DNA from: Bolinopsis microptera
Taxonomy: Eukaryota; Ctenophora; Tentaculata; Lobata; Bolinopsidae
Direction of reading: 5' to 3'
DNA length: 64,000 nucleotides
Assembly (NCBI RefSeq): GCF_026151205.1
Contig: NC_087082.1
Coordinates: 13,542,365 to 13,606,364, forward strand
The notes below the pieces were generated by a model. That model was not told the DNA's origin and made no database searches. It was given only the letters and a program-made list of their open reading frames with translations. How positions within the stretch are numbered: position 1 is the first letter of the stretch; every line of letters begins with the position of its first letter. Of the stretch, positions 26,201 through 45,551 are shown piece after piece. The translations under genes and the position numbers were made by a program.

Positions 26201-27899
26201 CTTCAGTCCAAGGTAATGAAAATAAGCATCACAACAATGCGACTCATAAATAATTTTCCTATCCGGATATTACACGTAATGAAAAAAACAATACATATTC
26301 ACCCCTTATTTTCATAATTGTATTATACAATATACGTGCATTGTAAATGAAGCTTACTTTTTTGCATTCAGGTGTGATTTGATGGAAGAAAACATATCAG
26401 ATAAACTTGGGGGTAATCTTGAAGAATGTAACATGAAATATGAGGTATTGCAAATAGTTCCAAGAGGTTAACAAAATATTTTCCGTCTCAGTTGTGTTAA
26501 AAAACGAAAATGAATTAACAGTACTGTGAATAGATGGCTTTTCGTGGTCGTTTAATTTACATGTAGGTTGCAATGCCGAACTGGTAGAGTTTCATGCAAC
26601 CCCAAAAATATTTTATCTCCCAGTTCGCAATGATAGACAAAACACCAAAAGACAAGAACAAGTGTAGGAATGTGGTAGTCCATGTGAAGCACACTGTTGA
26701 AGACGAAGCGGCTGGGGATCATAGATTCGAGATCGTTCACATCGTCAGCAGCGAAAAGAAACATAAGGTTTTTGTTCATGCCAATTACTCAAGATTACAA
26801 AACATAAATGAGTAATGATCTATAACCACGTTGCCATCAAACTTCTTTAATAATCGTAAACTTTTCGCGGTCTATTTTATTAAAACAGTATTTGCTAGAA
26901 ATAAAAACAATTTTAATATTTCAGGAGTTTACAAAGTCAGGAGACCTGAATCCGAACCGAACAGAGCGGTTCTGTGCGAACGTAGCGTGCGTGGACCGTA
27001 AAGTAGATCTGCAGATAAGGGTCGAGTGTGCTCATGTCATACCTCACGAAAACTTCAGGTACGCTCCATTTGTTTAACTAGACTTCAGAACAAGTTTCTC
27101 ATCATGACATGAGGCTATTTCTCAGATAATAATAGCTGAAGTTAATGCTCCTCACTATAATATCAAGATTAACATATTGTTGTTCACAGCACGTTTGTTG
27201 AGAGACTACAAGTAATGCCAGACGAGAGCGTACCCGGCAACCCTGCTGTAGCATTCGAATGTGAACAGAACCAGACCATTATCAGCGTCAACAAGGTGAG
27301 ATAAGCTTGTAGAGATAGTCAAACAACTTTAGTACCTTATGTTATGCAGTTTCAATCGTATCTTTGATATTGTGGATATGTCTCGAGTCAAACCTTCAGA
27401 CCGGCTAATCAGCAATTTATCTTAGTAAATAATAAACAAAGTTGATATATTTTGTTAACAGATTGCAGAGACGGTGATAGGCATCGGAAGTATAAAGATA
27501 GTGATATCAAGCGTAACCAGGGGGAGTATAACTAGAGACAGTATTTCTAGAGACACTTCGTTGGTAAAGTTCGAGTCCACTCCTTACACCAAAATAGAGG
27601 TTAGTTCATATTACGACGTTGTTAAGGGCGTTGGGTTTGTGGATTCGAAACTTACAGTTTGCACGAAAGTGAATAATTTTAGGCAGCTTATCATTCCACG
27701 ATTTCCCTTGTATAACGGGCTCTACTCTCAGGTTTGCAGTAAAGTATGGGAGGGAGCATTCAACCAGAACGTACTTGCTGCGTACGACGAGGCGGGTACC
27801 TCTAAAATGACATGGTCAGCTGAACAGATCTTAATGAAAGATTTGGAGGACTTTATGAACGTTGCACAGAACGCTTCTAAGTATGTCAAGCCAGAATGA
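2249..27899 (+). CDS. Tandem KH-domain protein, 14 coding exons, about 648 aa
   Basis: Exons: 2249-2381, 3517-3636, 4436-4569, 22235-22369, 22719-22793, 24540-24661, 25034-25147, 25361-25462, 26096-26212, 26372-26444, 26624-26767, 26925-27058, 27190-27295, 27462-27899. All junctions are GT-AG, phases match, and the total is 1947 nt. The ATG at 2249 is the first after an in-frame TAG at 2216. Two KH-like modules are visible: residues about 62-129 (GRDN at the GXXG loop, then LNKW and EIILGGKDDV) and about 133-197 (GHNC loop, then LKKIEEKTGTF and TVMIAG). Both loops depart from canonical GXXG. Residues about 200-648 form a globular region I cannot assign. KH proteins usually bind RNA; an RNA role here is inference. 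Intron 3 is 17.7 kb and contains UNC93-like genes on the other strand. The first exon is the least certain. Confidence 0.8.
3647..3708. repeat. 11-bp tandem repeat in KH-gene intron 2
   Basis: About five copies of an 11-bp unit close to TGTTGTTATTG lie directly after the donor of the exon 3517-3636. Confidence 0.8.
4470..8368. repeat. Tandem segmental duplication, copy 1 (3.9 kb)
   Basis: This segment is near-identical to 8369-11285. The left end falls inside KH-gene exon 3 at an AGGAGCCC shared by both copies. The right end is marked by the TTTACAACTTTTGGTCGTTG block at 8317, repeated near 11234. It contains the frameshifted UNC93-like copy and its upstream region. Confidence 0.9.
4718..6098 (-). 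pseudogene. UNC93-like membrane protein, frameshifted copy
   Basis: This is a near-identical copy of the intact gene at 8617-10017. Its frame is open from the ATG at 6098 to about 5057. A 20-nt deletion relative to the intact copy then shifts the frame, between short CAGC repeats near 5072. The remaining C-terminal part (SIYIALICGLIGLGDSG and onward to the stop at 4718) is in another frame. The break removes the last third of the protein, several membrane segments, so a working UNC93-family product is unlikely. Substitutions outside the deletion are few, so the break is recent. Confidence 0.88.
8369..8468 (+). pseudogene. Captured 3' part of KH-gene exon 3
   Basis: Copy of 4470-4569, including the CTGATC|GTAAGT donor, carried along by the tandem duplication. 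It lacks the original acceptor and the first 34 nt of the exon. The sequence before it, CAACTTAAG, could serve as a weak acceptor. Only one synonymous-looking change (CTA to CTG) separates it from the true exon. Confidence 0.85.
8617..10017 (-). CDS. UNC93-like MFS-type membrane protein (466 aa), intact
   Basis: Single-exon ORF from the ATG at 10017 to the stop at 8617. The protein is strongly hydrophobic, with about 11-12 membrane segments in two bundles. They are separated by an acidic, probably cytosolic loop at about residues 205-260 (rich in E, D and K). Features that suggest the UNC93 branch of the major facilitator superfamily are an N-terminal segment with VIQNIALAEST, a glycine-rich GLGLGALWILWPMV helix, and a C-terminal IIYYTTAGRIYG shared with the paralogue at 12960-14333. 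UNC93 proteins act as regulatory or trafficking partners of membrane proteins; the substrate or partner here is unknown. The gene lies antisense inside a KH-gene intron and is the intact member of a recent duplicate pair. Confidence 0.8.
   Translation of the reverse strand: MEKLKSVLLDEKNKNMAVAAISMSLCLTAMQPAGVIQNIALAESTDIDLVTGYYAESIKVAFSIIAAVFFNPIYSMIGIKLTALISTLLVTGTYWVMIWIVSKQLIYFGSALTGLGLGALWILWPMVIIDNSTPETKQRNMGLWFMTVACGLVIGGLANYFYFQNVRQISKENRVVVYAACSAVTILAAIIATVALTDVKKKSQGKERVDDVEAVPREDSDEEGEEDVDVMILMPGKPSPVQKGKDLVQILVNKTGLKDFLDWFKIMMKIPEFWLLAVPLFAWGFVWGFMVKILPTSIPSISDNRGLIPMIAVIMGVSYLIGTTIWNFIRKFTGNGFVVVSCCVFTIAAAVLSILILPQGSSTEILEIGSVKTYVHPDSIYIALICGLIGLGDSGLSIIYYTTAGRIYGKGTGPGYALNGIGYHGFYFVSMFAANIFSLHTYCYILIVGLVATALTFPLGLKKYME
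11395..12085. repeat. Older partial copies of the UNC93-gene upstream region
   Basis: Blocks at about 11395-11480, 11745-11815 and 11905-12080 match, with increasing divergence, the region upstream of the UNC93-like genes (6534-6790 and 10459-10715). The clearest shared run is CTGCTGTCCCTCAATTCCTC. They indicate repeated local duplication before the recent 3.9-kb event. Confidence 0.8.
12960..14333 (-). CDS. UNC93-like MFS-type membrane protein paralogue (457 aa)
   Basis: Single-exon ORF, ATG at 14333 and stop at 12960. It aligns along its whole length with the gene at 8617-10017 but is clearly divergent. Shared landmarks are VQNIALADST near the N-terminus, GTYWSMIWIV, LWIIWPMVVMNNSE, NYFYFQNVSKIS, and ADSGISIIYYTTAGRIYG near the C-terminus. 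About 11-12 hydrophobic segments flank a charged central loop (residues about 200-255) that differs in sequence from the other copies, as expected for a soluble linker. No frame damage is visible. It is the third member of the antisense cluster nested in the long KH-gene intron. UNC93-family assignment is by overall pattern; transport or regulatory substrate is unknown. Confidence 0.8.
   Translation of the reverse strand: MELKYTERTKNMVLASLCMCLCVMAASPAASVQNIALADSTNIDLAVGYYADIVKYIACILAGFIFHPFYKLAGIKITAAVLTILVTGTYWSMIWIVNQYTIYLGSFLSGLGYGSLWIIWPMVVMNNSEAGMSQKNMGYWWMAESLGVVVGGFCNYFYFQNVSKISTANRVMVNGLAAGVTIISAIIAALGISDITKSHNRHIPLTDREITYYEIDEEGEAEQQGTDKVEIIGGKDTPSSGQSDHEDRKSAREWFKEMRTLKEFWILFLPLIYWGFIWGYFVKMLPTATASISDRRDLIPLTILVTGAAYVVGSSSWNFISRCSNNTVCIILASLMHVVAITLSILVFPKSAASEISELGTAETYIQPHDMYVVVISGLIGLADSGISIIYYTTAGRIYGDGASLGFSVNNNGFCVFYIISMFTPSLFDLHSYCYCMLGAVLLMCLSITIGLRKFIK
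14334..16540. other. AT-rich intronic stretch, nothing recognised
   Basis: Part of the long KH-gene intron. The only structure noted is a short tandem repeat of ACAACAGAGTGATATATTAA near 14550-14592. The short ORFs on both strands near 15554-15829 are shadows without recognisable similarity. Confidence 0.5.
16923..18881 (-). CDS. Reverse transcriptase ORF of LINE, with (KD)n insert
   Basis: 652 codons. After a short N-terminus comes a long lysine-aspartate repeat (residues about 38-104) encoded by a hexanucleotide array. A complete-looking reverse transcriptase follows, with NYRPVSNLSAFSKILERIVL, then VVLLDLSAAFDTIDH (first catalytic Asp), FGVPQGSLLGPILFILYI, and YADDSQLY (catalytic YADD). 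A C-terminal region with WNSLP follows. It copies the element RNA by target-primed reverse transcription. The family is jockey/CR1/L2-like by motif; I cannot fix the clade. The ORF has no internal stop, but the missing endonuclease suggests it cannot move on its own. Confidence 0.85.
   Translation of the reverse strand: MKGMSSLNILNFKVFITFITEKVATIRQAIEKEGKDSDKDKDKDKDKDKDKDIDKDKDKDKDKDKDKDKDKDIDKDKDIDKDKDKDKDIDKDKDKDKDKDKDKDHVLDKDCIFDNFSEITADELKDLVSKMSNKFCCLDPIPAFLLKNCVDELTPFLLHVLNSSLKSGVFPSDMKKAVIKPTLKKENADVDILSNYRPVSNLSAFSKILERIVLNQLNVHLTNHSLYSEVQSGYRPNHSCETLLVRMCDDLNKEIEAGNVVIVVLLDLSAAFDTIDHTVLLEKLMKDYGITGSALQWIKSYLEKRHFCVKIDDTLSSFLELLFGVPQGSLLGPILFILYIKALQKIAAKYGLDIQLYADDSQLYISFQPNRVVQFTDVQDRTNKCLAEIKAWMVKNYMKLNESKTELLVLGKSHILKKCELSVRLQFGSTEILPTECKGDSWKSLGVKFDETLNMERQINNVKRKCSWTMMNLRTIGRYLDEGIKLMLVKQLVISKLDYCNSLYMNLPKTRLNKLRSTLNGAVRFIYNIEDRTTDLVPFYKKAHILPIDQRIFFKVCLLTHKSVHGTAPDYLKALLDVAVVDTELSNTMTRSKRSGDHLMLKVPKNKRSKVDDRRFSSHAPIAWNSLPIMLRCITDTNCFKRMLKNHLYNQF
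18571..18770. repeat. Hexanucleotide (TCTTTG)n microsatellite
   Basis: About 200 bp of near-perfect TCTTTG units, interrupted by TCTATA or TCTATG units. It lies in frame within the LINE ORF on the minus strand, where it encodes KD dipeptides with occasional ID. Confidence 0.95.
19220..20893. mobile_element. hAT-like non-autonomous element, 8-bp TSD
   Basis: It begins TAGGAACCGACC and ends with the inverted counterpart GGTCAGTTCCTA. It is flanked on both sides by AATGGGGT (19212-19219 and 20894-20901), an exact 8-bp target-site duplication as in hAT elements. The ends are rich in CCGG-containing words on both sides. There is no transposase ORF. A short motif with ATTTTCGGCT recurs inside near 19432, 19600 and 20530. 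It lies in the long KH-gene intron. Confidence 0.85.
19779..19913. mobile_element. Small MITE-like inverted repeat nested in the hAT-like element
   Basis: CGACAGTTGCGCCC at 19779-19792 is exactly inverted at 19900-19913. The element is about 135 bp and has no coding capacity. TA dinucleotides occur near both ends, but a clean target duplication is not certain. Confidence 0.65.
21617..22205. mobile_element. TA-flanked MITE next to a KH-gene exon
   Basis: CCTTACAAGACATTTTT at 21617-21633 is inverted at 22189-22205. Both ends are flanked by TA, as in Tc1/mariner-type insertions. Inside, a block of about 55 bp around CGCCATATTTTCGGACCGCC occurs twice (near 21670 and 22138). The right end is 29 bp before the exon starting at 22235. 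Confidence 0.8.
22895..24357. mobile_element. TTAA-flanked inverted-repeat element (1.46 kb)
   Basis: AGGATGAGGGGACCTTAGAA begins at 22895 and its exact inverse ends at 24357. TTAA flanks both sides (22891-22894 and 24358-24361). TTAA is the piggyBac target, but the terminal bases are not the classical piggyBac ones, so superfamily is tentative. There is no transposase. A 31-bp tandem duplication around GTTGCAATYGGCAGAGCACA lies near 23433-23495. The element sits in a KH-gene intron. Confidence 0.75.
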
Positions 27900-28303
27900 G
27901 TGGATGTTTTGATGTTTCCTGTGTTGCAGAGGATAAACTCTGATGGTTGCAAAGGGTAGCTTGCAAACAATGATGACTTATGACAGAAGCTGTAAAGTCA
28001 GCTGGACAGTGCAGAGAATTGGAGTAGTTTTGTTGCGAAGGGAAAGTTCCATTATAGCCGATTGATTCAGACTCAGAGGAACTTGATCTATATAATAAAT
28101 GTATTAAACATGTTGATATTTTACCGTAAACTTATGTTTCGTAGCTTTGAAATATTTTTATGTCTTGTGCATCCCAGACTTTCTTTAACAAATTGGAAAA
28201 CCTAGTGACAAAAATAATGTTTCTGCTGAGCTGCGATCTTATTGCATTTTGATCAAGGAGTCTGTCTAATGTCTATGTTTTGTACCTTACATTTGATATT
28301 TTT

Positions 28304-28309
28304 AATAAA
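28304..28309 (+). terminator. AATAAA polyadenylation signal of the KH gene
   Basis: AATAAA about 400 bp after the stop at 27899, in an AT-rich 3' UTR. It is the first good signal in that stretch. Confidence 0.6.
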
Positions 28310-28885
28310 GATTGTATGTATATTTTAATCATATTAATTTAACGTTGATTACCAAATTAAAAGCTCATATCATTTTGTTCACAACAAAAATTAATAAAAC
28401 TGGATTACATGGTATAATTTCAAGTTTTTAAAACTTTTATAATTTTAAAAGGAATAGAAGCATCATTCATTTTAATAAGAACGAAATCAAATTCTCCAAA
28501 TCTTGTAGAAAAGGGAAGGAAAGGACGCATCATTAACTTATTGTGTTAAGAGGTAAATAAGTACTCGACTACTCGACTACAATGATTGATACGGGTTTTA
28601 GCGTGTCAAACAGAAGAAAAACAATTAAACATACCCTTTTATGTTCTTATAAGTATGCTATTGAAACAGTAACTACTAAATTTCAAACCCAGAAACCCCT
28701 GGTGGATAAGGAGGCCGATGATACAGACGCAACCGTTATCTTCACATAATTCACGGAGGTATGAGACGTGAGATGGTGCAGTGTCCTTCCCGTTACTATG
28801 GAAACCATAATCACATCTTCCCCCAGTTCCCTCTTGGCCTTGCTTCTTTAAATAAAGTCATTGCTTTAATCTATGACAGCTCCTT

Positions 28886-29287
28886 TCACATGGATCTAAG
28901 TAGTGGTCTGTTGAAAGCAGCCCGTTTCTCTCTGCCAATATCCTCACCCTGTTCCTCCTGATGCCTCTCCTCGTCGTGCTTCACCTCCCATTGTTGCGCA
29001 CTAGTACCAACTGCACTGGATGGGGGTGTGGCCTGTATCCTGTACCGTCCCCCGTTCAGGGCCACCAGCTCCCTCTGAAACGAAGGTAGGGTAACCAGGG
29101 GTTGTCTGACGATGGGTTTCCGGCAGGTAGGAGGTTCAGGAGTGTGGCGGACGGCGGTGTAGAGAGTTGAGGGTTTGTGATGGAGAGAGACTGGTTTGCT
29201 GGGTGCGGATACATTGTGGGCTATGTAGTCTCTCTTGGTTGTACTCTCCCTCCTGTACAGCATTTGCGCTTTCAGCAGCAACTCCAT
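28886..29287 (-). CDS. Uncharacterised basic protein, 133 aa (possibly one exon of a larger gene)
   Basis: Open frame from the ATG at 29287 to the stop at 28886. The ATG directly follows a good acceptor-like sequence (CTTACTCAG), so either a 5' UTR intron precedes it or coding continues upstream. I could not find that upstream exon. The protein is charged and lacks membrane segments. It opens MELLLKAQMLYRRESTTKRD and closes with a Glu/Arg-rich, probably helical stretch (KHDEERHQEEQGEDIGREKR) and FNRPLLRSM. GC content is higher than its surroundings, which favours real coding. I do not recognise the family. It lies tail to tail with the KH gene and upstream of GON7 on the same strand. Confidence 0.5.
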   Translation of the reverse strand: MELLLKAQMLYRRESTTKRDYIAHNVSAPSKPVSLHHKPSTLYTAVRHTPEPPTCRKPIVRQPLVTLPSFQRELVALNGGRYRIQATPPSSAVGTSAQQWEVKHDEERHQEEQGEDIGREKRAAFNRPLLRSM

Positions 29288-30300
29288 CTGAGTAAGAGTC
29301 GGGTTAGAGATGTATAGGGTGTATAATACAGAAATATTCGTAATATTTTATCAGCATGATGAAAGTTATATATTCGATGTTCATTGTTGTAGCGGGATCA
29401 AATGTTAAAAGCTTTTTTATCTAGTTCAAAAGCACAATTAATGACGATAGTAACTGAACATATATGGCAACGAATATATATATGACGCACACTCGAGTAC
29501 CGCAATTTAAGTCAACGCACACCCTGCAACTCAACCAACTTACTACTAAACTGGACTGATAATAAAAAGTTCACTGCCACTTCACACAATAATATTATGA
29601 ACTTAAACATGCTCCCTTAGAACACTATGACATATGTTATTGAACTGCGATCTAATCTTATCGAACGCATGAGGAATAAATATGCACCTATAATATATAG
29701 GTGGCATTAGCAGCTAGCAAACATGAACTAGGGCGTTTATTTCAGAATTATACAGTATATACCGTTTGGTCAAGTCTGACTCTATCTACATGTATGCAGT
29801 ATGACCCATGGCATGTTGTAGCTAGCCATGGAATGTCGTTTTCCCACTTCCGCAGTTCAATGTGATATCAAATCTTTAACAAGCGATTAAACTGATAGCT
29901 TGGACATAAATTTTGAATATTTAATTCAAAATTTATTAAATACATTTTTACAAAGATTAATTCTTCCTGTAATTTTGGGCAAAAACAATTCGAATAAAGA
30001 CAAAACAACACAAAATCAATGGCTCCAGCTCTGTATTATGGGAAAGAGTGTTTGTGAATTCCGTTGCTAGGAGCAACAGAATTTCATTAAAAGTCATCCG
30101 ATACCCCATTCACTGCTTTTAGCATAAAGTACCGAATGGAGAACTGATATGTTGACCGATTCCGATGAAGTGAGCGGTCATGTCATTAATTAAGTGTACT
30201 TTTAAACTGTTAAATTACGTAGCCCATTAGCTGGAAAAACTCCCCGAATACATAATATGTATTTCATTAGTTATTACTGTGCACAAATTTTCCTCAACTA
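29288..30300. other. Intergenic or intronic AT-rich stretch
   Basis: No gene or repeat recognised between the 133-codon ORF and the GON7-like gene. It may hold upstream non-coding exons of the ORF at 28886-29287. Confidence 0.4.
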
Positions 30301-30304
30301 GGTG

Positions 30305-30310
30305 TTTATT
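30305..30310 (-). terminator. AATAAA polyadenylation signal of GON7-like gene
   Basis: TTTATT on the plus strand reads AATAAA on the minus strand, 67 bp after the stop codon at 30377. Confidence 0.6.
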
Positions 30311-30376
30311 TTTTCTTCTAATAAAAATCATTCATTCAGCCCTTCTGCATACCTCTTAAATTTTGTCTGCGACCGG

Positions 30377-30938
30377 TCAGGAATCTGTCTTACATCTTTT
30401 GTTATCATTCTCTTCATCCTCAGAACTGTCCTCTGCGATATCACCCTCTTCTATTGTTTCTGAAATATGATATTATCAGTCTTTATGCATTTAAATGGCC
30501 ACGTATAAAAACTGTCAGCAAGGCTTTGTAACCATATTGAGAGAAGTGGACAGAATTTTTATAATCACCACTCTCTCCAATTAAGAATTTAAACTGCAAG
30601 AGGTTTTCTATTTTCTGTGTGAAATGTTACATGTACGATTGCACACCAAACTATACAATAGAAGTAAGAGTGTCTTCAAGGCATTGCCTCATGGAAGAGT
30701 CCATGAAGCGGATAACTAGCTGTTCATGTAGTTAACTGCAACAATCCCCATTGAAGCAGTACGACTTACCTGACTTTATGGCATCAGCCCCATTGGATGT
30801 AATCTTGTTGCTGATAATAGTGTTGATCTGGGTCTTGACGGACTGTATCGCTCCAGATAGTCCCTTCATGGAACCATCAAACTGGCATGTCGACTTGATG
30901 TCTTCTCCCACGACCAGTGTAAATGAAACTTCAGACAT
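30377..30938 (-). CDS. GON7: GON7-like KEOPS complex subunit, 2 exons, 83 aa
   Basis: Exon 1 is 30938-30770 and exon 2 is 30459-30377, joined in phase 1 with a GTAAGT donor and a TTTCAG acceptor. The protein starts MSEVSFTLVVGED, has a central helix GLSGAIQSVKTQINTIISNK, and ends with a highly acidic, disordered tail (DIAEDSSEDEENDN). This small size and order (short strand region, LSG-containing helix, acidic tail) fit GON7. In animals GON7 is the small subunit of KEOPS, the complex that makes the t6A modification on ANN-reading tRNAs, where it contacts OSGEP/LAGE3. Assignment rests on size and pattern, not a search. A CpG-rich stretch (GTGCGTGCGCGCGCGTCGCG) lies upstream at about 31008-31027, as for a housekeeping promoter. 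Confidence 0.72.
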
Positions 30939-31261
30939 AACTGTGAAGTCGGAGTATTTAATTAATTACATTACACTGCCAAAAGTGTTTTATCGCTTCG
31001 GAAATCGTGTGCGTGCGCGCGCGTCGCGTAATTCGCGGTCATCCGTCTAAAAAGAACTTGTTGCTACAATATTATTTTCCCGGCGTAATCCAGAAGTACA
31101 TAAAAATTGGCAGACATTAGCAAGAACATGTTGAAAAGTTGTATTATTTTGATGCACGAGCAGCTGCTGTGCTTGTCAACTTCTATGATCGGCGAATACA
31201 TGTTTCTAATTATAATTGGCAATCGGAGTAACTACAGTTTTCTTTATGAAAAAGGTTACAT

Positions 31262-31267
31262 TTTAAT
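31262..31267 (-). terminator. Possible ATTAAA polyadenylation signal
   Basis: TTTAAT on the plus strand gives ATTAAA on the minus strand, about 225 bp beyond the stop of the large PHD-homeodomain gene. No AATAAA was seen closer. Confidence 0.35.
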
Positions 31268-31490
31268 GATCCAACAATAACAGACTTTTGCAGGATACGT
31301 CTAAAAATAATATAAGTTCAAGATTAGCGCATAACTTAAGAGTCTTGCAATAATAAACCCACCAAACATGCCTACTAACTTCAGTTAAAAAGTGAAATGT
31401 GATAATAACTAACCATGATAAATTAATAGGCAGAATAAAGTTGTACAAGTAAAATTAAAATGATATCATGAAAGTATAAAAATTAAAATT

Positions 31491-32066
31491 TCAACAGTCT
31501 TTATCGTAGAGACACCGAAAGTCTCGAACCCTAATAAAGTCCTCACAATCTGAGGCTGCTACTGAGTGTTTCTGCCGAATGTGAGCTAAAGTTTTCTCCT
31601 TGTTTTTGAAGAGAGCTTTACATTTAAGACACTCTGTAGAAATCCATTGTTTGACGTGATTCTCACTGATGTGCCGGACAGTGTGTTTTGATTCCTCCTG
31701 ATGGATAAATTGTTATATAATACAAACTGGAGGAAAAGGGTGGATAGAGGGATCATTATTTAGTTTCCATAAATTGATCTAACAAACCACTAATTCTAGA
31801 TATTGGTAAAACATAAATACCAAATTCGGACCAGAAATTTCAAGAACAATTAATAAAGTGTGAAAAGTCACGTACGTTTCGGAACATCTTGCAGAAGGGA
31901 CACACGTGCATTGAGACATCAACATTGTCCTGGTGTTGTTTTAGAGAAAAAACACTGGTGAAGTTCTTGGAACAGTGACAGCAAAAGTACCTCAGTTTAA
32001 GTTTGTGTTGCATCAGTTTACCTCGGGTTGAGAAGAAACTCTCGCATTCCTCGCATCGGCACGATT
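31491..32066 (-). other. Domain region: C-terminal C2H2 zinc fingers
   Basis: The last two exons carry a degenerate finger (CEECESFFSTRGKLMQH, second His missing) and CCHCSKNFTSVFSLKQH with a distant second His. A finger beginning CPFCKMFRN is completed only after splicing by HISENH. The last finger is CLKCKALFKNKEKTLAHIRQKH with its ligands intact. The protein ends LYDKDC and stop. Restoration of the split finger supports the final splice junction. Confidence 0.75.
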
Positions 32067-35000
32067 CTGAAAACGTTAAGATTTATTTTAACGTGAAACC
32101 AATGATTAACGGTTTAGTTAGGACACAAAATAAAGGACTTCAAAGACAAACTAGTTATGGTTTGACCGGTGTTAACTGTGATTACTGATTATGTACTAAC
32201 TAACTAACTCAACTTAAAAACTTGTATTCATACTATACAATAGTTTAAATTACAAAAGCTCACCCTCGCCAGACGGTGACACTATGTTAGCAGGACTACT
32301 CTTCACTGGACTAAGCATATCCTCTTCAATACACGTGACTTTAGCAGGGCTGCTGGCAACCTTCCTTGACTTGAAAGAGTTTGATATTTTCAGGGGTTGA
32401 ACATTATCTTCCTCTGGTAATAATGTTGAACTAGGTTCTTCTACATACGAGACTGAGGTGGAACTTTCCTCATCAGGGAATGGAGTGGAATAAGCTGCCG
32501 TGTCAGAAGATTTGCTCTCGTTGTCGTCGTCTTCTATAACGTCATTATCGGAGAGATTAGGAAAGATGTCTTTTGACTCGTTCATGGAGTTGTCATGTTC
32601 GTCTGATGCTTCACTAGGTTTTGAAGTATTTTTGTGAGGATGCAAAAAAATAAAATAAATTTTATCAGTTAAGTTGGTCTCATAACGGGAGACAAATTGC
32701 CAGAAAATGTTGAAATTCAATTAAAAAAGCATCGAAACATTTTGGGACAATAACTAAGAAACTGAAAATACACGCACTTGTCGTCCTCATTTTGACTATC
32801 AGCGCCAGTAAGAAGAGAAAAGAGCGGAGACACATCCTCCGGACATGAAGTCAAGTTGACCTCCTCCAGAAAGTTAAGAGAAGACAAATACCTCCAGTCT
32901 GAGCCTGAGTTGTATTTCTCTACCTTGTACCGTGACATTAGACTCTTCCATTTGGAGGTAATCCGATCAACTGGAGGCGAAGGAGAGGGTAACATTTTAT
33001 TATTTCAGGATGAGACTTGTATGTAAATTTTGGCACACAAAACTGATGAAACTTTTAAACGTTCGAGCTGTAATTATCTATACAAGATTTCAAATATCAC
33101 GTGGGATTGTTCAGCTGACTCACCAGGAATATCTAATTTTCTTTCCAGTCTCTGTATTAGCTTGTCCTCGTTACTCTCATATTTACAGGAATCGTCCCAC
33201 AAGTACGGGTTCAATGAGTAAAATTCTGAAAGACGGTACGGAATAAAAAATAATTTTAAGTTAAGTTAATAATTAAGTCTCCCTTTTTCTGAGTAACGGA
33301 TGTGCTCTTAAATCGTCTCAATTATTATTTGTCAACTATTCTGAACACGCTACTTCTTGCTTACAGAAACATCGTATCAAGGCAACTAGACCAGAGACTA
33401 TTAACTTATTTAACTTACCTATCAAGGAAAAGACTTCATTCTCCGACCAATCATAACCCTTCTTCCTTCTCTTTTTCTCTTCAGCTTTTGGTGACACAGC
33501 AAATATCGTCTCCAGAAATTCAACCTCTTCATCCGCCGACTCTTCTGTCTCTTCCTTTCTCTCAGACACCTCAATCGTCAACTCGTCATAATTTTCATCG
33601 TCGCACTTGGGCGCTTTCTTTTTACCCCGCTTTCTCGGCCTTCCTCTGGCTTTAGGTGGATCGGTTTTAAGTTCTTTATTTATTTCTGAGATCCCCGGAG
33701 ATGTTTTTCTTGGTCTTCCTCTGGGCTTAGGGGAAACAGATTTAAGTTCTTCTTTTATTTCTGAGACTAATGATTTTCTAGGCCTTCCTCTTGGTTTAGA
33801 GGAATTAGTTTTCAGTTCTTTTATTTCTGAGATTCCTGAAGTCGATTTTCTCGTTTTCCTGGGTGACATAGAGGCATCAGAGGATGACTCTCTTGTTGGC
33901 ATTGGTTTGAAACTGGCAGCTGAGGATGTTTTTCTGGCTGTCCGACGTAGGGAAGTGTTATTCTTAACAGGACTCTGACCGGTGAAAATCACCTCAACCT
34001 CATCTTCATCATCTTCCTCATCTTCTTCATCCTTTAACTCAGGTTCAATATCAACTATTTCTGAGCTTGTACTTCTCTGTGTCCCTAAGGAAATACATCA
34101 AGTTAGATTTATAAAATCAACTTCCCTATACTAGACTCAGCACGAATAAAACAGAACAATTTCATGTTGGAAAAGGGATTCTAAAGGACTCAATTGAGAT
34201 ATCTATAAAATAATTTACCTCTTCCAGTTTTAGTGCCATCCCACCCTTTTACTCGGTTAGAATGAACATTTCTCATGTGATCCATCCTGATTGACATCTT
34301 AGAGAACTTGTCCTCGCAGTAGTAACACCTGTAGACTGTGGATGGAGAAGCGCTGACTTTTGGAGGAGATTCGTGTTTTTCTGGAGTTCCTTCTGATTCC
34401 AGCTCCTTTTTAATAGGAGACTCAACGGATAGTGTTTTGGGAGGTAATGGTTCTGGAATATTCTCTGGTTTAGTAGGTGATGATGAGAGAGGGAAGGACT
34501 CTGGTGTTTGTTCCCGAGAAGGATGGGGGGTCTGGTAGGGTGATCTCTTGAACGGAAACGGTTCGTACTCGTTTTCTTGTGTTACTTTCGATTTCTTTGT
34601 GTTCGCTTCGTCGCTCGTTTCAATTTTACGACGCTTAGCACGTGCAGTATAGCTGAAGGGAAACAAAATTAGAAACAAAATTAGAGGATTCGAGCTTTGC
34701 AATCTTCATGTATTGAGAGGTTTAGATTTGATGACATGGCGAAAACGTAAAATCAATTTTTAAGTAGAAGAATCAACAGCTAAACAAGGTAAAGGTAAAG
34801 GTAACTTCATACTTGTCCCTGTCGTTTCTCTTGTTTAAAGTGGTAAGTTTAAAGAAGCTGTTCAGTTTGGTCTGCTCTCCCTTTGGTTTAAAACTCGGAC
34901 GGCTTGTCTTGGTCACCTTCCGGATTAACGATTTGTTTTTCCTATGCTTTACTATATACTCCCACAATTTTTCCTTGTGTTCATTATACGGCTCGACCTC

Positions 35001-38000
35001 TTCATCTTCAACAACAGTTTCTGAAAATTAAAAAAAGTTAACAACGTTATACAAAGCGCACATAATATAATAACACTACGTTGGGTTCTTAAATCATATG
35101 GTTAGGGGTGAAAATTCTAGTCAAACTCTGAAAATATCAGCCAAGCGGAAAGATGGTGATTGGCGATGCAGGTGTCAGTGTGCCGAAATAGTGATGTTGC
35201 AAAGAACCAACCAGCTTGAGGAGGAGTATATTTGAGTTTGGTAAGTAGAAGGTTAAAAGGTCGAATTGAGAGGGTTGCTAGACGGGGATCAGGCACAGTG
35301 TTTTCAGACTCTGTATCGTAATCTGGATCACTTGCTACAGATGGGACGGGGTCCAAACCTGAATGTAGTTTTAGAAAATTATTGTTTAAAGGGACTCTCG
35401 ACTCTTTTTTGAGAGCCCGTTATTTAATAGTATACACACATGCGGAAGTTATTAAGTACATACAGAAGAAACACAAAATTTGAAGTTTAAAACTAAAATT
35501 ACCTATCCAAATATCAGGATCCAGATTCTTTGAAATGAGCTTGTCCTTTTTCAGCTTTGCAACACACAATTTGAACACTGCTTCTTTCAACGTCTCCGGT
35601 GTCATCAGGAAGGGGTCTTTTGAGGGGCTCAAAGTTTTCTTTCTATGTCGCTTACTTGAGGAGCTTCCTGATCTGTTGCGGCTGCAGCCTGGGAATGTAA
35701 TTGATTAATCAAGAAGTTAATTAATGGAATTATTAATTTAACAATTATTCAAATAAAAAGCGAGAAAACATTTATCAGCTCAGCACTTGCAATGTCAGCA
35801 CATAAAAAAACAAACAGCACAGTGGAATAAACGAAGTATTTACTAAAAAAAGGTACATGTTATAAGAAATACATTGAGGTACGAATAATTGTCACTAACA
35901 AAGAAACATTAAAACCTTTTTTTAATTAAGATGTTTCAGGAATGCAAGTTATCAGTTTTCAAATAAAAACACGCTGAGAAGAATCCGCGGAATTAGGATG
36001 ATTTTAAGCATTGGCAGCGAGCAATGAGCATTTTAATTAAATATGTACAAGTGAATTGCGCAAATCTGCGGGGGTTCCAGCAACATATATGGGCTATACA
36101 ATATGATCACGTGATATACGTCATCAGATGAAGGTGCCTGAGTGGAAGTGAGGTGTGGAACTCTAGCGAGGGTGACTGTGTGGATGATAAAATGAAGTCG
36201 ACCAGGAAGCTCAGAAGCTGTACTGTAAAATGAGGCTTTCCAAGTGAACCTTGGTATGGTATCTTTCGAAGGCTCTCGGTCGACTACTCAATGATTTGGT
36301 GAAACACAAATGTGTACCTGTACTAGTTTCAGATTCTGGTTTATTAGGAGATTCCGTTTCAGGAGAAAGGCCAGGATTGTGGTCATTTGAACTTCTCTTT
36401 TTCGACCAGGTCTTACGTCTAGTAGGTTCAATGTGGATAGAAGAATCTGAGTGCCAATCTTCTTCTGCTAAAACAATGTTTGGATTTATATCTCATGTCA
36501 TGAATGTCACCAATCAGATATCAAGTTCATTGTAAGAATATAGGAGGACAGCTATTGATGAAGTATGAAAAGAATACAAGCATTTTGACAAGAGTACGTA
36601 CTCATGCATTGGAACCCTTTCGTTTGCTATCCATGCGTCTCTTTTTCTTAAACCACCCTTTAAGACTATAGTCTGGGATGCCAGTTTTCTCGAGGATTTC
36701 CTTTTTTGTCTCCGGAGAGGGATAAGGATTCTCTTGATAATGCTGTTCCATAATTTTGATACTACTCTCTGGAATCTTTTTGCGAATCCTTTTCAACGTT
36801 GTCCCTACGTAAGTTTTGAAATTTGGCTTTTTAACGTTTAAAAATAGAATGTCGATTGCAATGTACGAAAGAATTCTCAAATCCTAGAAAAACATAATGG
36901 GGTTCTCAATGCCACAAGCTTGTGAGATTCATTGATTGCAGCACTCCTCAAATTATTGCTATTTCCTACCAGTTTGAAGAGATTCATCTTTTCTCATCGC
37001 CGCAAACCAAGCCTCTATATGGCTCCTAAAAGAACCTGTTTCTGATATCATACTTTCAACATAGTCCGGGTTAACGAACTTTTCCCTCTGGTAGTACTTT
37101 TCCAAAACAGCTAACTGATCAGGTGTAAACTCCAGCTGGCCGTAGTAGGAGTAATTTACTACAGATTTACTTCCAGGGACTGTAAAACCAGTTACTGAGG
37201 AGGATGAAGTACAGTCTTCAAGTGCAGTGATGTGTGCAAGTGTGATGTGTGCAAGTGTGATGTGTGCAAGTGTGATGTGTGCAAGTGTGATAAGACAGTT
37301 TTGTAGCCAAATGAAAAGTTGTGATATTTAACTAATCAGGCCCGGGGGAAGAAATAACATGCATTTTCGTGACAAGAATAAACAGCGCTACAGATTAAAT
37401 TAAGTCGACCGAGAAGCTTCAGTTAAGAGGAACCAATGAACCCACAATTTTGTCTTTTCTAACATAGTCTAGTATCGAAAGCCTGAAGGCTACCAGCGAC
37501 AAATTCATGAGTGTGTGATGGAAGTGGAAGTTCTACTGTGGAACACATCTTCATAAACTTCAACCTGAAAACTTGAAGTTTAATTTTGGCGCACGAGACA
37601 CTGAGACATAAACTAGTACCTGTACTGGTATCTGATTCTGAAGTGTCCGTTTGTTGAGGAGAATAGTTTAAAGAAGGAGCCTCATTCTGACTGATTATAT
37701 TTTTAGTTGGACCATAATTTCCCGATTTTGCCCAGGAGAATTTTCGTTTACATCTTTCAGGGTCCAAGGAAAGGGACCATTTAGATTGGTAGACACACTT
37801 CCCATCTGCAAAAACATCAGTCAAAATTGGAAAGACTTAGGCTCCTTAAAAACAACTTCATTTGGATATCATGCTTAGTTTTTAGAGAATCGATGGAGGC
37901 GATGGTCTCCTTTGAGGTATGAGAAGAATACAAAAATGTACGTACTCATGGCTTTGTAATCCTTCGTTCTGCGAGTTTGAAACCAAGACTTTAAACTGTA

Positions 38001-41000
38001 AACAGGAATGTCAAGTTTCGTAAGAATCTCTTTCATTGTTTCTGGTTCAAGGAAATGATTTTGTTGGTAATACTCTTCAAGAACTTGGACCTCCCTTTCT
38101 GATTTCGGTTTTTTATCCCTTTTAATCGCTATCCCTATGACAAAAAGGTTTGTGACCTATCTTTTTCATTAAAAGAGCAAGCAATTTGGAGGCAATATCC
38201 ATAGAAACGAAGGAGCGTATCCAAAATTCAGTGAAGTTCAGAATATGCCGATATAAGTTAGGTTATTTAAGCTAGTTTTATTGATTTCCCTTTTTTTTCG
38301 ACTTCCTACCAGTTTTATGAAATTCCTTTTTCCTCTGCTTAGAAAACCAGGATTCAGCACTGCTCAGAAGGATTTCATTTCCTGACTCTGCTTCAATCCT
38401 TTCCATCATGGCTGTATCGACAAATTTTGCTTTCTGATAGTACTTCTCCAAAACGGCGATTTGATCAGTTGTCAGGTTTTTGCCTCTTGGACGCCGGAAG
38501 CTGTCTAATTTTGAGGTGGTGCTACCTGGTTATATTATAATAGTGAGTGAATTACCGTAAATAGTTAATGAGATGCGGAATGTGTAATTATACAGTAATA
38601 CACATAGAATAAATCGTGTATCATGCTTGCAATCGGGAGGGCACAAATCACTGATAAAAAGTCTATCTGAGATCTGAACATTTTGCTAGGTTCCCATTTT
38701 ACAGGCCGAACTGAACACATTGTTTCTGCCAACTTGCTTAAAAAGAATCAAAATAAATATTTCGGGTTAAATCTAACAAAGCTAATAAAAGTAATCAGCA
38801 GAAAGCGCAGGCTCTGAAACTCATAACGTATGTGAAAGTGAAACTGGAGGTGAAGGTGAAAGTTAAAGCTCATAGCCAAATTTGTGCCCTTAACCTACCA
38901 GTCGAGCTGTTCACATTACTGGGACCAGCCGCTTCCTGGTCCAGAGATAAGTTCTTTGTCCTTTTTGCTGGTTCTGCAGGCTTCTTTTTTTCTTCTTCAA
39001 GCCTTTCTGCTGCATACTTAGACTGAGAGAAAAGTAAAAATACATAAATTTGTACAGGTACATGATCTCGAATCTTGTAGATAATCTACTCGATATCCGC
39101 GGGATATGAAACTTAAACGTTAAGCCATAAAATGACTGTTCAAGCTAACTTGACATTGACTGACTCACCTCAATAGTAACGCAAGTACCACAGCTCCAAT
39201 CTTTAGGGCCACGTTTCTCGTGTCCCAGACAGTAAGGGTGAGCTCCAGCTTGTCCACACGTGACACACTTCATCAGATCCCACTTATCACTGGGAGGAGA
39301 GTATTTATAAGGTATTGCAATTAATTATATCCTGATAATGGTAATTATATAGATTACACCAGGTATTATGAGTACAACAGGTCTAGAAGTTAATTGAGTT
39401 GTCCTCTATAATTAAATCCAAATTAAAATGTAAAAGTTCAGACACTGATTGAAGATTGTAGTTATAGTCAGTTCTTTGATAAGTTTTGCTTACTTGTTGC
39501 GACTGTCACCCTTTCTCCCGTCAGGATGTAAACAGATAGGAACATCACATCTCCAGTGTTCCACATACAGGTCATCATAGTAACCGTCTTTCTCCCATAC
39601 TGCGTCACTGTAGAGTGTAGCAAGAAGTAAGTTAGGGTGCAGTTTGGGCTCAGACCCCAGTTTCATCTTAGAACAAGGTTTCAACAAATTTCCCATACAC
39701 AAGAACTAGACTCCCCCCAATGATAAACCAATTAGCCAAAGACAATACCCTCTACAAAACGCAGTGTAATGTATTAATAAGCAATAAGAAACTTTACACC
39801 GTGTAATATACGATGTACAGTTACACACGTTCTCATCACACATAGACAGTGTTATGTTAATTACACTGCACAGAGAGGGGGCCGGGAAGAGAGCTCAAGG
39901 GGCTCAATTCTCTGTGTACATAGAACTCAATCAAACCAAAAGGTATGAGCGAAATTTGGGGAGGGGTACTCAATTAAATCGATACTCTAATTCGTCATAT
40001 ATTATCTATATTTATATATAATGACTTTGGTGACGTCATCACTTTATTCAAGATATCATCTTACCTTAGAGGGATATTTATCCCCATGATTTTCATGATA
40101 TTATTGAACTTTTTCTCGTTGTTGCACATTGGACACCTAAAGAAGTAACCACTCGCATCGGCTTGATTCTGAAAGAGGGTTATGTATCATATTATCGTGA
40201 TTAGTTAGCTGCTTAGCAATATCAGGAAATTCGTAAGGCATAGATTATGATTGATAAGCACTTTGAGAACTGTAATTGATAATTTTTAGACTCAATGGAA
40301 GGGTTTATACCTGAATACAGTCCCTGTGAAAAGGAGTCATATTGCAGCACTCAGTGACTATAACTTGTTGTGGTACCACCTTGCTCTCCACTGATATCAT
40401 GTCACCACAAATAGCACATTCCACTGTTTTACCCATCATTTCCTCCAAGAAGTTCTGTCGTGGTCTGTGGCTGTCACAAAACGACCTGAAAAGTCCAGAG
40501 TTAGAACTAAACTTTTCATTTACGAAGCTAGGGAATTTTTCTGCATTTGTAAATAATAACTTACGAAGCAAGGGAATTCTTCTGCATTTGTAAATAAGAT
40601 TAATCCAACAATAATTATTCTACTTTTTTCTTCAGCTTTTTCGATAATTTCGAGATATGACCAGACCAAGTACCTGAAGTTATCGTAGTACTGCATGAGA
40701 CAACCATTTGAGAGCCCACAAGTCAGGTGATAAGTGTAGGAACAGCGCGCCTTGTTACATCCCACCAGGGCACCAGGTAACCGACAAAACGAACATGTCT
40801 GAGGAAAAGAACAATTTAGCTCCCCTCAGCCTATCTGTCCTTACTTGAAGGTGACCATTAATGTCCTGATTATTAGGATATTGCTAACGAGTCACGTCAA
40901 GAAGCTACTCTCTAAATAAACAGTAATTTGGATTCCTATAGCTCAGTAAACTAAGGATCCTAATGTAATTATGATATCTTCTATATCAAAAGAATAACAA

Positions 41001-41797
41001 ACCAAACGTTTCCCCCGAGACAGTTCTTTTTTGATGTTGGGAGTGAGAAATCCCCATAATCCTTCTTCATTATTTCCAGCTTGAACCAATCCAGACGAGA
41101 ATAGCTGCAAAATGATTAGGAGTTGATAATTATTAAATCTCAAGCAATAACGATTATAGATAACACTGATTGGCCTAATTCTTTGCCTCTACATTCGAAA
41201 TAGGATGCAAGAAAAATCTAGGAAACAAAGAAAGTTACCAAACAGCTATGATGGGCAAGTATTCCGTCAACGTCCTTTAGTTCTCCCAATTTTTTAGAAA
41301 CATCTTTAGTATAACAGAAGTGACAACAATCCTGAGGGGGAGGTACCCAAACAGTTGGGGCATTGTTTTTCTTACGCTTTCTTGAATCAGGGGTCACATT
41401 TTCTTTTGTGCCAGTATCTGCAAGTATACAAGTAATTTTAGAAAAACTGATTTTTATTATCATGATTGTTTTCAATAATAAAGCTAGTAAAGTAACAACT
41501 TTCACTTGTCTAACTGACATTACAGTAACATCTTAATCAAAGTCCAGCAAATGCATCTACCAAAACATCTAAAATAATGTAATCATAACACTTACTTTGT
41601 CTATTAGATGTATTTCCTTTTGTCGGCTGGTGGACAAGTTTTTCTTTCAAATCAGCAGGAATGCACAAAGATCCATCAGGGTTAAAATTTAGAACTGCAG
41701 CTTTTCTTGGGGAGGCATGCTTCTCAGTGAGAGGTTTCTGTGGCTCTTTGATATCAGGATAACTTACAAGGTGGCTTGTTGTCTCTTCGTCTGTCAT
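31491..41797 (-). CDS. PHF7/G2E3-like PHD module + four homeodomains + AT-hooks + MADF + C2H2 protein (about 1,626-1,689 aa)
   Basis: Exons (5' to 3'): 41797-41596, 41417-41239, 41104-41003, 40798-40674, 40485-40311, 40168-40065, 39607-39494, 39289-39169, 39022-38899, 38525-38310, 38134-37946, 37805-37620, 37179-36970, (36804-36602 or 36616, see its entry), 36467-36318, 35688-35503, 35358-35212, 35020-34813, 34652-34219, 34084-33419, 33225-33124, 32970-32778, 32613-32264, 32066-31876, 31697-31491. Every junction is GT-AG and phase-compatible, and the frame stays open (4881 nt without the bracketed exon, 5070 with its 189-nt form). Domain order: ePHD/RING-like/PHD, residues about 95-372; homeodomains about 430-745; C2H2 about 1085-1112; three AT-hooks about 1210-1270; MADF about 1325-1412; C2H2 fingers about 1560-1670. 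It looks like a nuclear chromatin or DNA-binding protein. Function is inferred from domains only. That this is one gene rather than two rests on continuous phase, without transcript evidence. Confidence 0.82.
32778..34084 (-). other. Domain region: acidic stretch, three AT-hooks and MADF domain
   Basis: Exon 34084-33419 opens with a run of Glu/Asp (KDEEDEEDDEDEVEV). It then carries three AT-hook cores, SKPRGRPRK, PKPRGRPRK and PKARGRPRK, in repeated contexts with SEI(K/N)(K/E)ELK. The end of that exon with 33225-33124 and 32970-32778 forms a MADF/Myb-like domain: VFSLIGEFYSLNPYLWD, then ITSKWKSLMSRYKVEK and SDWRYLSSLNFL. AT-hooks bind the minor groove of AT-rich DNA; MADF domains bind DNA and are common in invertebrate transcription factors. 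Confidence 0.8.
36318..37179 (-). repeat. Homeobox cassette 2 (exons A2, B2, linker L2), duplicate of cassette 1
   Basis: A2 (37179-36970) has FTPDQLAVLEKYYQREKFVN and IEAWFAAMRKDE. B2 (36804 onward) has SIKIMEQHYQENPYPSPETK and YSLKGWFKKKRRMD. L2 (36467-36318) ends PESETSTG. Order, exon lengths and splice phases mirror cassette 1, which implies tandem duplication of a three-exon block. Position 51 is A in A2 and K in B2. Confidence 0.8.
36602..36804 (-). other. Homeobox exon B2 with a stop abutting the donor
   Basis: Acceptor at TACGTAG|GGACAACG in phase 1. Read to the homologous donor CATGA|GTACGT, the frame ends in TGA exactly at the exon edge, and the exon is 203 nt. The sister exon B1 is 189 nt with the same CATGA|GTACGT end. 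B2 carries about 14 extra nt just before it. A weak donor at AAAGG|GTTCCA would give 189 nt and keep frame into L2. Skipping B2 (A2 to L2) is also in frame. The exon could therefore be a terminal, poison or alternatively spliced exon. Confidence 0.6.
37228..37291. repeat. 15-bp tandem repeat in an intron of the large gene
   Basis: About four copies of TGTGCAAGTGTGATG in the intron between L1 and A2. Confidence 0.9.
37620..38525 (-). repeat. Homeobox cassette 1 (exons A1, B1, linker L1)
   Basis: A1 (38525-38310) encodes a homeodomain with TTDQIAVLEKYYQKAKFV and recognition helix SAESWFSKQRKKE. B1 (38134-37946) encodes one with VQVLEEYYQQNHFLEPETMK and YSLKSWFQTRRTKD. L1 (37805-37620) is a Ser/Thr-rich linker ending TSESDTSTG. 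All three exons are phase 1-1. The Asn at homeodomain position 51 is replaced (K in A1, T in B1). Confidence 0.8.
39169..41417 (-). other. Domain region: PHF7/G2E3-type ePHD, RING-like and PHD fingers
   Basis: Exons 2-8 follow the human PHF7/G2E3 N-terminal module piece by piece. The ePHD runs from CCHFCYT through LAHHSCL, FSSGLVQAGNNEEGLWGF, RLTCSFCRLPGALVGC and YHLTCG to FCDSHRP. A second zinc module follows: CAICGD, VTECCN, FHRDCIQ, then FFRCPMCNNEKKF and MGINIP. A third module has WRCDVPICLHPDGR, then MKCVTCGQAGAHPYC and WSCGTC. In PHF7 and G2E3 this module reads histones and carries ubiquitin E3 activity. The zinc ligands look complete here, so ligase or reader activity is plausible but unproven. 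The HECT domain of G2E3 is absent; homeodomains follow instead. Confidence 0.82.
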
Positions 41798-45322: not shown

Positions 45323-45551
45323 TTTGATGCTCTTTCCAAACCTAAGAGAGTTGCTTGGAATATGAACTGTACGCTAATGTAAATATTATGTAGTATTGAA
45401 AAATGTAAATTGTTTTTTATTTCCATATTTTTATCTGTTATTGCTACCTGTTAGATGTTGGTGTTTTATTTGTATAGGATCATTAAAACTACAATAAGTG
45501 ACTGCCGATGAAATTGGGATCTAAGTTAAAAGTAAAAATTGATATCTAAAA

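Follow-up and report, generated by a model that had tools for sequence, protein, structure and literature searches.

A 64,000-nucleotide stretch of the Bolinopsis microptera genome (contig NC_087082.1, positions 13,542,365 to 13,606,364 of the forward strand; here called the window) carries on its minus strand a predicted gene in which a ligase-type zinc module is joined to homeodomains and to several other putative DNA-binding domains. The gene model has 25 coding exons, running from an ATG at 41797 to a TGA that ends at 31491, and all 24 introns are GT-AG, which bears out an earlier note on this DNA that had counted 24-25 exons on one strand with GT-AG borders throughout. An in-frame TGA lies two codons 5' of the ATG, and the frame is open from the ATG as far as exon 14. 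The domains follow one another as an extended PHD (ePHD), a RING-like domain, and a PHD finger of the PHF7/G2E3 type, then four homeodomains, and then C2H2, AT-hook, MADF, and C2H2-like finger regions. We think it probable that this is one gene, the only one of the PHF7/G2E3 type found here, and that it encodes a large chromatin protein with the roles proposed below. The join between the PHD finger and the homeodomains is strong. The join between the homeodomains and the AT-hook/MADF/C2H2 half is probable, and it is the less certain of the two because it depends on exon 14.

That the exons form one gene was indicated by a simple gene-finding dynamic programming (DP) procedure, in which the codon, donor, and acceptor scores were taken from this gene. 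The scores were trained on all exons, on exons 1-13 only, or on exons 16-25 only, and the intron background always came from all introns. In each of the three trainings the best path was a single gene from 41797 to 31491, with scores of 694.6, 575.0, and 582.1, respectively. With the all-exon scores, 100 dinucleotide shuffles gave a mean of 24.6 and a maximum of 61.0, against 694.6 for the gene, and five control stretches, probably including some with real genes, gave 24.6-142.7. A pseudogene or a chance chain of open reading frames was rejected on the DP score, the shuffles, and the ratio of nonsynonymous to synonymous divergence (dN/dS) of the duplicated exons described below.

Domains at the two ends of the protein

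Residues 98-373 of the predicted protein align to PHF7 (PDB 8jwj) with an E value of 5e-57 in a PDB sequence search, and 101 of 269 residues are identical. Within the aligned stretch 29 of the 38 Cys and His residues of PHF7 are kept, counted by alignment and with zinc-ligand status not taken from the structure, and CxxC pairs are kept at 99/102, 163/166, 226/229, 273/276, 342/345, and 367/370. The ePHD matches Pfam zf-HC5HC2H at 72.6 bits (cut-off 29.1; E of 3e-20). By alignment, 13 Cys/His are conserved in this stretch, and two of those in PHF7, C34 and H57, are lost. The RING-like domain between ePHD and PHD aligns throughout with 8jwj, and the PHD finger keeps its C4HC3 residues (C316, C321, C342, C345, H351, C354, C367, and C370). 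We conclude, from the 8jwj and zf-HC5HC2H matches, that the PHF7/G2E3-type module recognized in the earlier note is real.

How many such genes the animal has was approached by searching its own genome, an assembly of 264.65 Mb in 232 contigs. With the module as query, nine of ten rows were exons of this gene, and the tenth was weak (E of 0.0075). Within the limits set by gaps and by an exon-wise search, this looks like the sole PHF7-type gene in the genome. Activity of human PHF7 in vitro is reported to require RING, PHD, and ePHD, and PHF7 and G2E3 are reported as H3K14 ligases (PMC13061254). From the sequence of the module we infer E2-dependent ligase activity for the ctenophore protein.

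At the other end, the AT-hooks, MADF domain, and C2H2 fingers that had been claimed are present. Three RGRP AT-hook cores with basic flanks lie at residues 1224, 1247, and 1272 (numbered in a 1,694-residue variant), and in exon 20 they sit on a DNA repeat with spacings of 75 and 69 bases. MADF scores 28.2 bits in Pfam (cut-off 22; E of 2.4e-6). By pattern there are five C2H2-like fingers, two of them canonical and three degenerate; the terminal fingers reach 28.0 bits when scanned alone (cut-off 27) and only 19.8 inside a longer segment. When the C-terminal half was searched against the genome, 10 of 12 rows were its own exons and two were weak (E of 0.001 and 0.007). Two further searches with MADF were set aside. 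The best PDB match for the MADF part was GT-1, which was not significant (E of 0.029), and a Pfam MADF search of the genome cannot serve as a gene count, since it found three matches elsewhere and missed the exon-split MADF of this gene.

The homeodomain array

Four homeodomains are present, as the earlier note held, and each occupies one exon (exons 10, 11, 13, and 14). The array segment matches Pfam Homeodomain with an E value of 4.9e-26 over four stretches. Scored singly, homeodomains 1 to 4 give 20.5, 38.3, 21.0, and 37.6 bits; with the cut-off at 22.9, homeodomains 1 and 3 by themselves fall about 2 bits short. A PDB sequence search with the array gave homeodomains and listed 20 sequences at an E value of ≤0.001, the best of them DUX4 (3.3e-6). 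AlphaFold2 models of homeodomains 1 and 3, built from a four-sequence alignment, have three helices each (mean predicted local distance difference test scores of 79 and 73), and the best 50 of 263 Foldseek rows for the homeodomain 1 model are all homeodomains. Judged from these models, the homeodomain fold is retained.

What the fold is used for is another matter. W48, F49, and R53 are retained in all four homeodomains, and Asn51 is lost in all four (K, T, A, and K in order), while three comparison homeodomains from other loci of the same genome retain it. Asn51 is invariant across 346 homeodomains in an analysis cited by Holland et al. 2007, who also describe one human homeodomain with Lys at this position (PMC2211742). 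Residue 47 is S, S, A, and G in homeodomains 1 to 4. Homeodomain 3 has a net charge of -3, and its third helix is neutral; in homeodomains 1, 2, and 4 that helix carries +2, +4, and +5. Because Asn51 is gone from all four and homeodomain 3 is acidic, sequence-specific DNA binding is doubtful, most of all for homeodomain 3, and it is unlikely that the array reads DNA in the ordinary way. One could still suppose that they are functional sequence-specific binders that steer the ligase to chosen genes, a proposal that concerns the homeodomains only and is compatible with one gene. It would be favored by the retained fold, by the three conserved residues, and by the positive third helices of homeodomains 2 and 4; it is opposed by the loss of Asn51 from every copy while the three comparison homeodomains of the genome keep it, by its near invariance in other homeodomains, by the residues at position 47, and by the overall acidity of homeodomain 3, and we regard it as quite improbable. 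The earlier proposal that a single protein carries at least four kinds of DNA-binding domain is thereby weakened: the domains are present, and ordinary base recognition by the homeodomains is unlikely.

The array probably arose by tandem duplication of a three-exon unit, and for the first two exons of the unit the sequence argues firmly for duplication. A block made up of exons 10-11, the intron that separates them, and the first part of the following intron aligns to exons 13-14 with identity in 363 of 599 columns (2e-26). Exons 12 and 15 share 31% protein identity over 49 codons. By the Nei-Gojobori method, nonsynonymous and synonymous divergences (dN and dS) are 0.41 and 2.34 for exons 10/13, 0.50 and 2.39 for exons 11/14, and 0.72 and 1.51 for exons 12/15; dN/dS is ~0.18 for exons 10/13 and ~0.21 for exons 11/14, and since dS is near saturation (1.5-2.4), these ratios say only that protein change was restrained.

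Two observations were made in passing. Intron 12 contains, at 37227-37291, a short tandem array of the TCACACTTGCACACA type, and similar stretches occur on C6, C8, C12, and C13. The best matches of homeodomain 2 elsewhere in the genome are two near-identical homeobox frames at C2:18704500-18709800 (175 codons, WFQNRRAKDR), which lie in opposite orientation ~3 kb apart.

One gene or several

How the two halves of the gene are joined turns on exon 14. Its strong donor (TGA/GTACGT, score 6.72) makes an in-frame TGA the last codon and gives a protein of 754 residues. Exon 11, which is homologous to exon 14, has an identical donor without the stop. A weak donor at 36616 (AGG/GTTCCA, score 0.23, the lowest in the model; the next lowest donor scores 1.59) gives 1,694 residues instead, and skipping of exon 14 keeps the frame and gives 1,631. 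The earlier note had described exons that were all phase-compatible in one open frame, and this fails at exon 14 when the strong donor is used; its estimate of 1,630-1,690 residues matches the exon-skipped and weak-donor variants. When the weak donor was banned in the DP, scores fell by 11.8, 9.0, and 4.6 bits, and the best path was still one gene, with exon 14 skipped in two runs and shortened in one. The one-gene path also survived banning of the exon 14 acceptor, or of donor and acceptor together.

Any split in the DP pays a start/stop cost of 19 bits set by the analyst. With that cost included, a forced split at the exon 14 stop lowered the score by 23.2, 29.1, and 22.9 bits, and a forced split between the PHD and the homeodomains at 39140 lowered it by 31.9, 30.7, and 35.6 bits (training on all exons, exons 1-13, and exons 16-25, respectively). 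Beyond the 19 bits the margin is modest, 4 to 17 bits.

Several observations weigh against the reading of the locus as one gene for one such protein. The DP scores come from the gene itself, and the bits hinge on costs that the analyst set. When exons 16-25 served as the training set, exon 3 was lost, exons 4 and 5 came out changed, and exon 14 was shortened. Training on exons 1-13 gave exons 17 (0.095) and 24 (0.032) codon scores below that of the best intron frame (0.131); the per-exon codon score is a weak measure, however, because the true ePHD exon 4 also scored low (-0.115) in the reverse test. At exon 14 the strong donor yields a stop, and the long form requires the weak donor or skipping. 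Among the domains, zf-RING_2 alone reaches 24.3 bits in Pfam, under its cut-off of 27.3, and PHD_4 reaches 15.7 bits, under its cut-off of 30.6. Foldseek E values for homeodomain 1 are poor, the best being 0.013 and none being ≤0.001 among the rows listed. Finally, the DNA match of exon 15 to exon 12 covers only 39 bases at the 3' end plus the donor (31/39, 7e-5).

Merging of neighbors is a common error of gene prediction, and a PHF7-like gene and an adjacent, unrelated homeobox gene might have been fused here through over-chaining of exons. We consider that very unlikely. Introns 8 and 9, of 146 and 373 bases, have good splice scores, exon 9 between them looks coding and lacks a Met, and the split at 39140 is the one that costs 30.7-35.6 bits, start/stop costs included. 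The same evidence upholds the proposal that the PHF7-type module is joined to the homeodomain exons in one gene, and the junctions named for it, 39169 to 39022 and 38899 to 38525, are the exact boundaries of exons 8/9 and 9/10 in the model. A division farther along is unlikely too, if less starkly so: a PHF7 plus four-homeodomain gene would end after 754 residues at the exon 14 TGA, and a separate AT-hook/MADF/C2H2 gene would follow, with its own promoter or with spliced-leader trans-splicing at the acceptor of exon 15 or 16. The in-frame TGA with its strong donor favors two such units, intron 15 is the longest of the model at 629 bases, and spliced-leader trans-splicing has been reported in ctenophores (PMC7986045). 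Operons, however, had not been reported in ctenophores, according to that paper. Moreover, the second gene would have no natural start: the best split path has to open on a chance exon of 22 bases, and it loses 22.9-29.1 bits, of which start/stop costs make up 19. Read 5' of exons 15 and 16, the frames run into a stop after no more than 28 and 19 bases, respectively, without an ATG. Exon 15, although the match is short, resembles a duplicate of exon 12 and so is probably part of the homeodomain unit.

The TGA of exon 14 might itself be an assembly error or a minority allele, in which case the protein would be one chain of ~1,690 residues with four homeodomains. This is a variant of the one-gene reading, so that its likelihood is not to be added to those of the others, and we hold it to be a serious possibility while leaning against it. 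The assembly was made with wtdbg and then polished with Illumina reads (PMC10232365), and its ribosomal DNA (rDNA) appears rich in errors by eye. In addition, exon 14 (203 bases) differs from its duplicate exon 11 (189 bases) by 14 bases, which breaks an otherwise common phase, even though the donors are identical. Against an error, exon 14 showed no further damage, and the assembly yielded no second copy or haplotype of the stretch for comparison. On balance we retain the reading of one gene with a proposed alternative end at exon 14.

The exact exon list is not final (Table 1). The all-exon and exons-16-25 runs added an exon at 36286-36203, and the exons-1-13 run placed the exon 15 start three bases away. 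A run over the whole window arrived at 26 exons because it read through intron 4 and included 36286-36203. Exon 17 and the possible additional exon are uncertain. Three other tests of gene boundaries and coding status were tried and given little weight. Per-exon codon scores were useful overall and weak on Cys-rich exons, 18 AATAAA/ATTAAA sites over 42500-30500 were scattered in introns and exons and did not discriminate a gene end, and a bacterial-type promoter scan of 38850-39200 was uninformative for an animal.

Table 1. Exons of the predicted gene and the features assigned to them, in window coordinates
Feature	Position	Strand	Basis
Exon 1, N-terminal tail	41596..41797	-	Gene model
Exons 2-5, ePHD (zf-HC5HC2H) and start of RING-like domain	40311..41417 (exon 2, 41239-41417; exon 3, 41003-41104; exon 4, 40674-40798; exon 5, 40311-40485)	-	Pfam, PHF7 8jwj alignment
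Exon 6, remainder of RING-like domain	40065..40168	-	8jwj alignment, Pfam zf-RING_2 below cut-off
Exons 7-8, PHD finger, C4HC3 pattern	39494-39607, 39169-39289	-	8jwj alignment, pattern
Exon 9, Lys/Glu-rich linker without Met, from PHD to homeodomain 1	38899..39022	-	Codon and splice scores
Exon 10, homeodomain 1, WFSKQR, residue 51 = K	38310..38525	-	Pfam, AlphaFold2, Foldseek
Exon 11, homeodomain 2, WFQTRR, residue 51 = T	37946..38134	-	Pfam, alignment
Exon 12, linker 3' of first homeodomain pair	37620..37805	-	Gene model
Exon 13, homeodomain 3, WFAAMR, residue 51 = A, duplicate of exon 10	36970..37194	-	Pfam, AlphaFold2, DNA alignment
Exon 14, homeodomain 4, WFKKKR, residue 51 = K, duplicate of exon 11	36602..36804	-	Pfam, DNA alignment
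Exon 15, linker, probable duplicate of exon 12	36318..36467	-	Short DNA match, 31% protein identity
Exons 16-18, no recognized domain (exon 17 uncertain)	35503-35688, 35212-35358, 34813-35020	-	
Exon 19, one canonical C2H2 pattern	34219..34652	-	Pattern
Exon 20, acidic stretch and three AT-hooks (RGRPRK)	33419..34084	-	Pattern, DNA repeat
Exons 21-22, MADF, starting at end of exon 20	33124-33225, 32778-32970	-	Pfam
Exon 23, acidic, Ser-rich linker	32264..32613	-	Gene model
Exons 24-25, C2H2-like fingers, one canonical	31876-32066, 31491-31697	-	Pfam, pattern

Elsewhere in the window, three consecutive UNC-93-like MFS open frames lie on the minus strand at 5004-6110, 8617-10029, and 12960-14360 (368, 470, and 466 codons), and two long RVT_1 reverse transcriptase open reading frames of retrotransposon type lie at 16923-18893 (minus) and 45543-48056 (plus). 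A predicted gene at 50854-55178 (plus) has a PHD finger (2.5e-9) and by eye resembles CXXC1/CFP1, which would place a second chromatin protein nearby. KH domain exons (2.2e-5), FXR-type by eye, lie somewhere in a predicted chain at 17872-37792 (plus), which is over-long and overlaps the homeodomain gene on the opposite strand. Rfam gave no matches at the gathering score over the window. In the assembly at large, the sole 5.8S rRNA match, at C5:2305813, is poor (48.2 bits; cut-off 42), and the rDNA stretch there seems full of homopolymer errors, a warning about local assembly quality.

Proposed function and relation to known proteins

How such a protein might work can be outlined from its parts. 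By analogy with human PHF7 and G2E3, the ePHD-RING-PHD part may recruit an E2 and ubiquitinate histone H3, in their case at H3K14. The AT-hooks, MADF, and fingers may hold the protein on AT-rich DNA. Because Asn51 is missing, the homeodomains would most likely make contact with proteins, RNA, or the DNA backbone and not read sequence. The stop in exon 14 might let splicing choose between a 754-residue ligase with homeodomains and a longer form of ~1,630-1,690 residues in which the DNA-anchoring half is also present. Taken together, and judged from sequence, the protein is most likely a PHF7-like ubiquitin ligase for histones that is anchored on chromatin and carries a duplicated, noncanonical homeodomain array. 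We speculate further, and with little confidence, that in ctenophores the single PHF7-type histone ligase was rebuilt as a lineage-specific chromatin hub, that its homeodomains were turned into a contact array, and that the terminating exon toggles between a mobile 754-residue form and an anchored one. If so, this would be a homeodomain array that keeps its fold under apparent constraint although the key base-contacting residue has been lost from every copy.

The ctenophore protein has the same three zinc modules as PHF7 and G2E3, in the same order. Neither PHF7 nor G2E3 is known to have homeodomains, AT-hooks, or MADF. G2E3 carries a HECT domain, whereas the ctenophore protein has no HECT match in Pfam over the segments scanned, residues 1-415, 416-750, and 802-1694 (exon 15, ~50 residues, left out). 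With MADF-BESS proteins it shares a MADF above the Pfam cut-off, but here MADF lies in a multidomain chromatin protein, and no BESS family appeared at an E value of ≤1 in the Pfam scan of the gene's segments. Plant PHD-class homeodomain proteins have a plain PHD finger and one homeodomain and are not known to carry a PHF7-type module. Like the ctenophore gene, this class combines the two domain types in a single protein (PMC4901127).

The ZF class (ZFHX and ZHX/HOMEZ) combines several homeodomains with C2H2 fingers, and ZFHX3 has 4 homeodomains and 23 fingers (PMC4901127). Homeodomains and C2H2 fingers are both present in the ctenophore gene, though they are joined only in the long form, and the first homeodomain of ATBF1/ZFHX3 is the top Foldseek row for ctenophore homeodomain 1. 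No ePHD-RING-PHD, AT-hook, or MADF is mentioned in the passages of PMC4901127 on that class, and the ctenophore array differs in being without Asn51 throughout. CTEP1 and CTEP2 are loop-anchor chromatin proteins restricted to ctenophores and have C2H2 fingers (PMC12221973). They were compared by description only; the words "homeodomain" and "MADF" are absent from the main text of that paper, and the text comparison found no link to the present gene. A survey of Mnemiopsis homeobox genes lists 76 homeodomains, and its table shows none partnered with PHD or MADF. We note that 18 of them are unclassified and, like the present array, without an internal intron, and the orthologues could be among these. 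The earlier note knew of no described family with this order, and among the papers listed in literature searches (titles and abstract openings) there was likewise no protein with this domain order or with a PHF7-type module and homeodomains. Ultimately, the parts are all of known kinds, and it is their order that is unusual.

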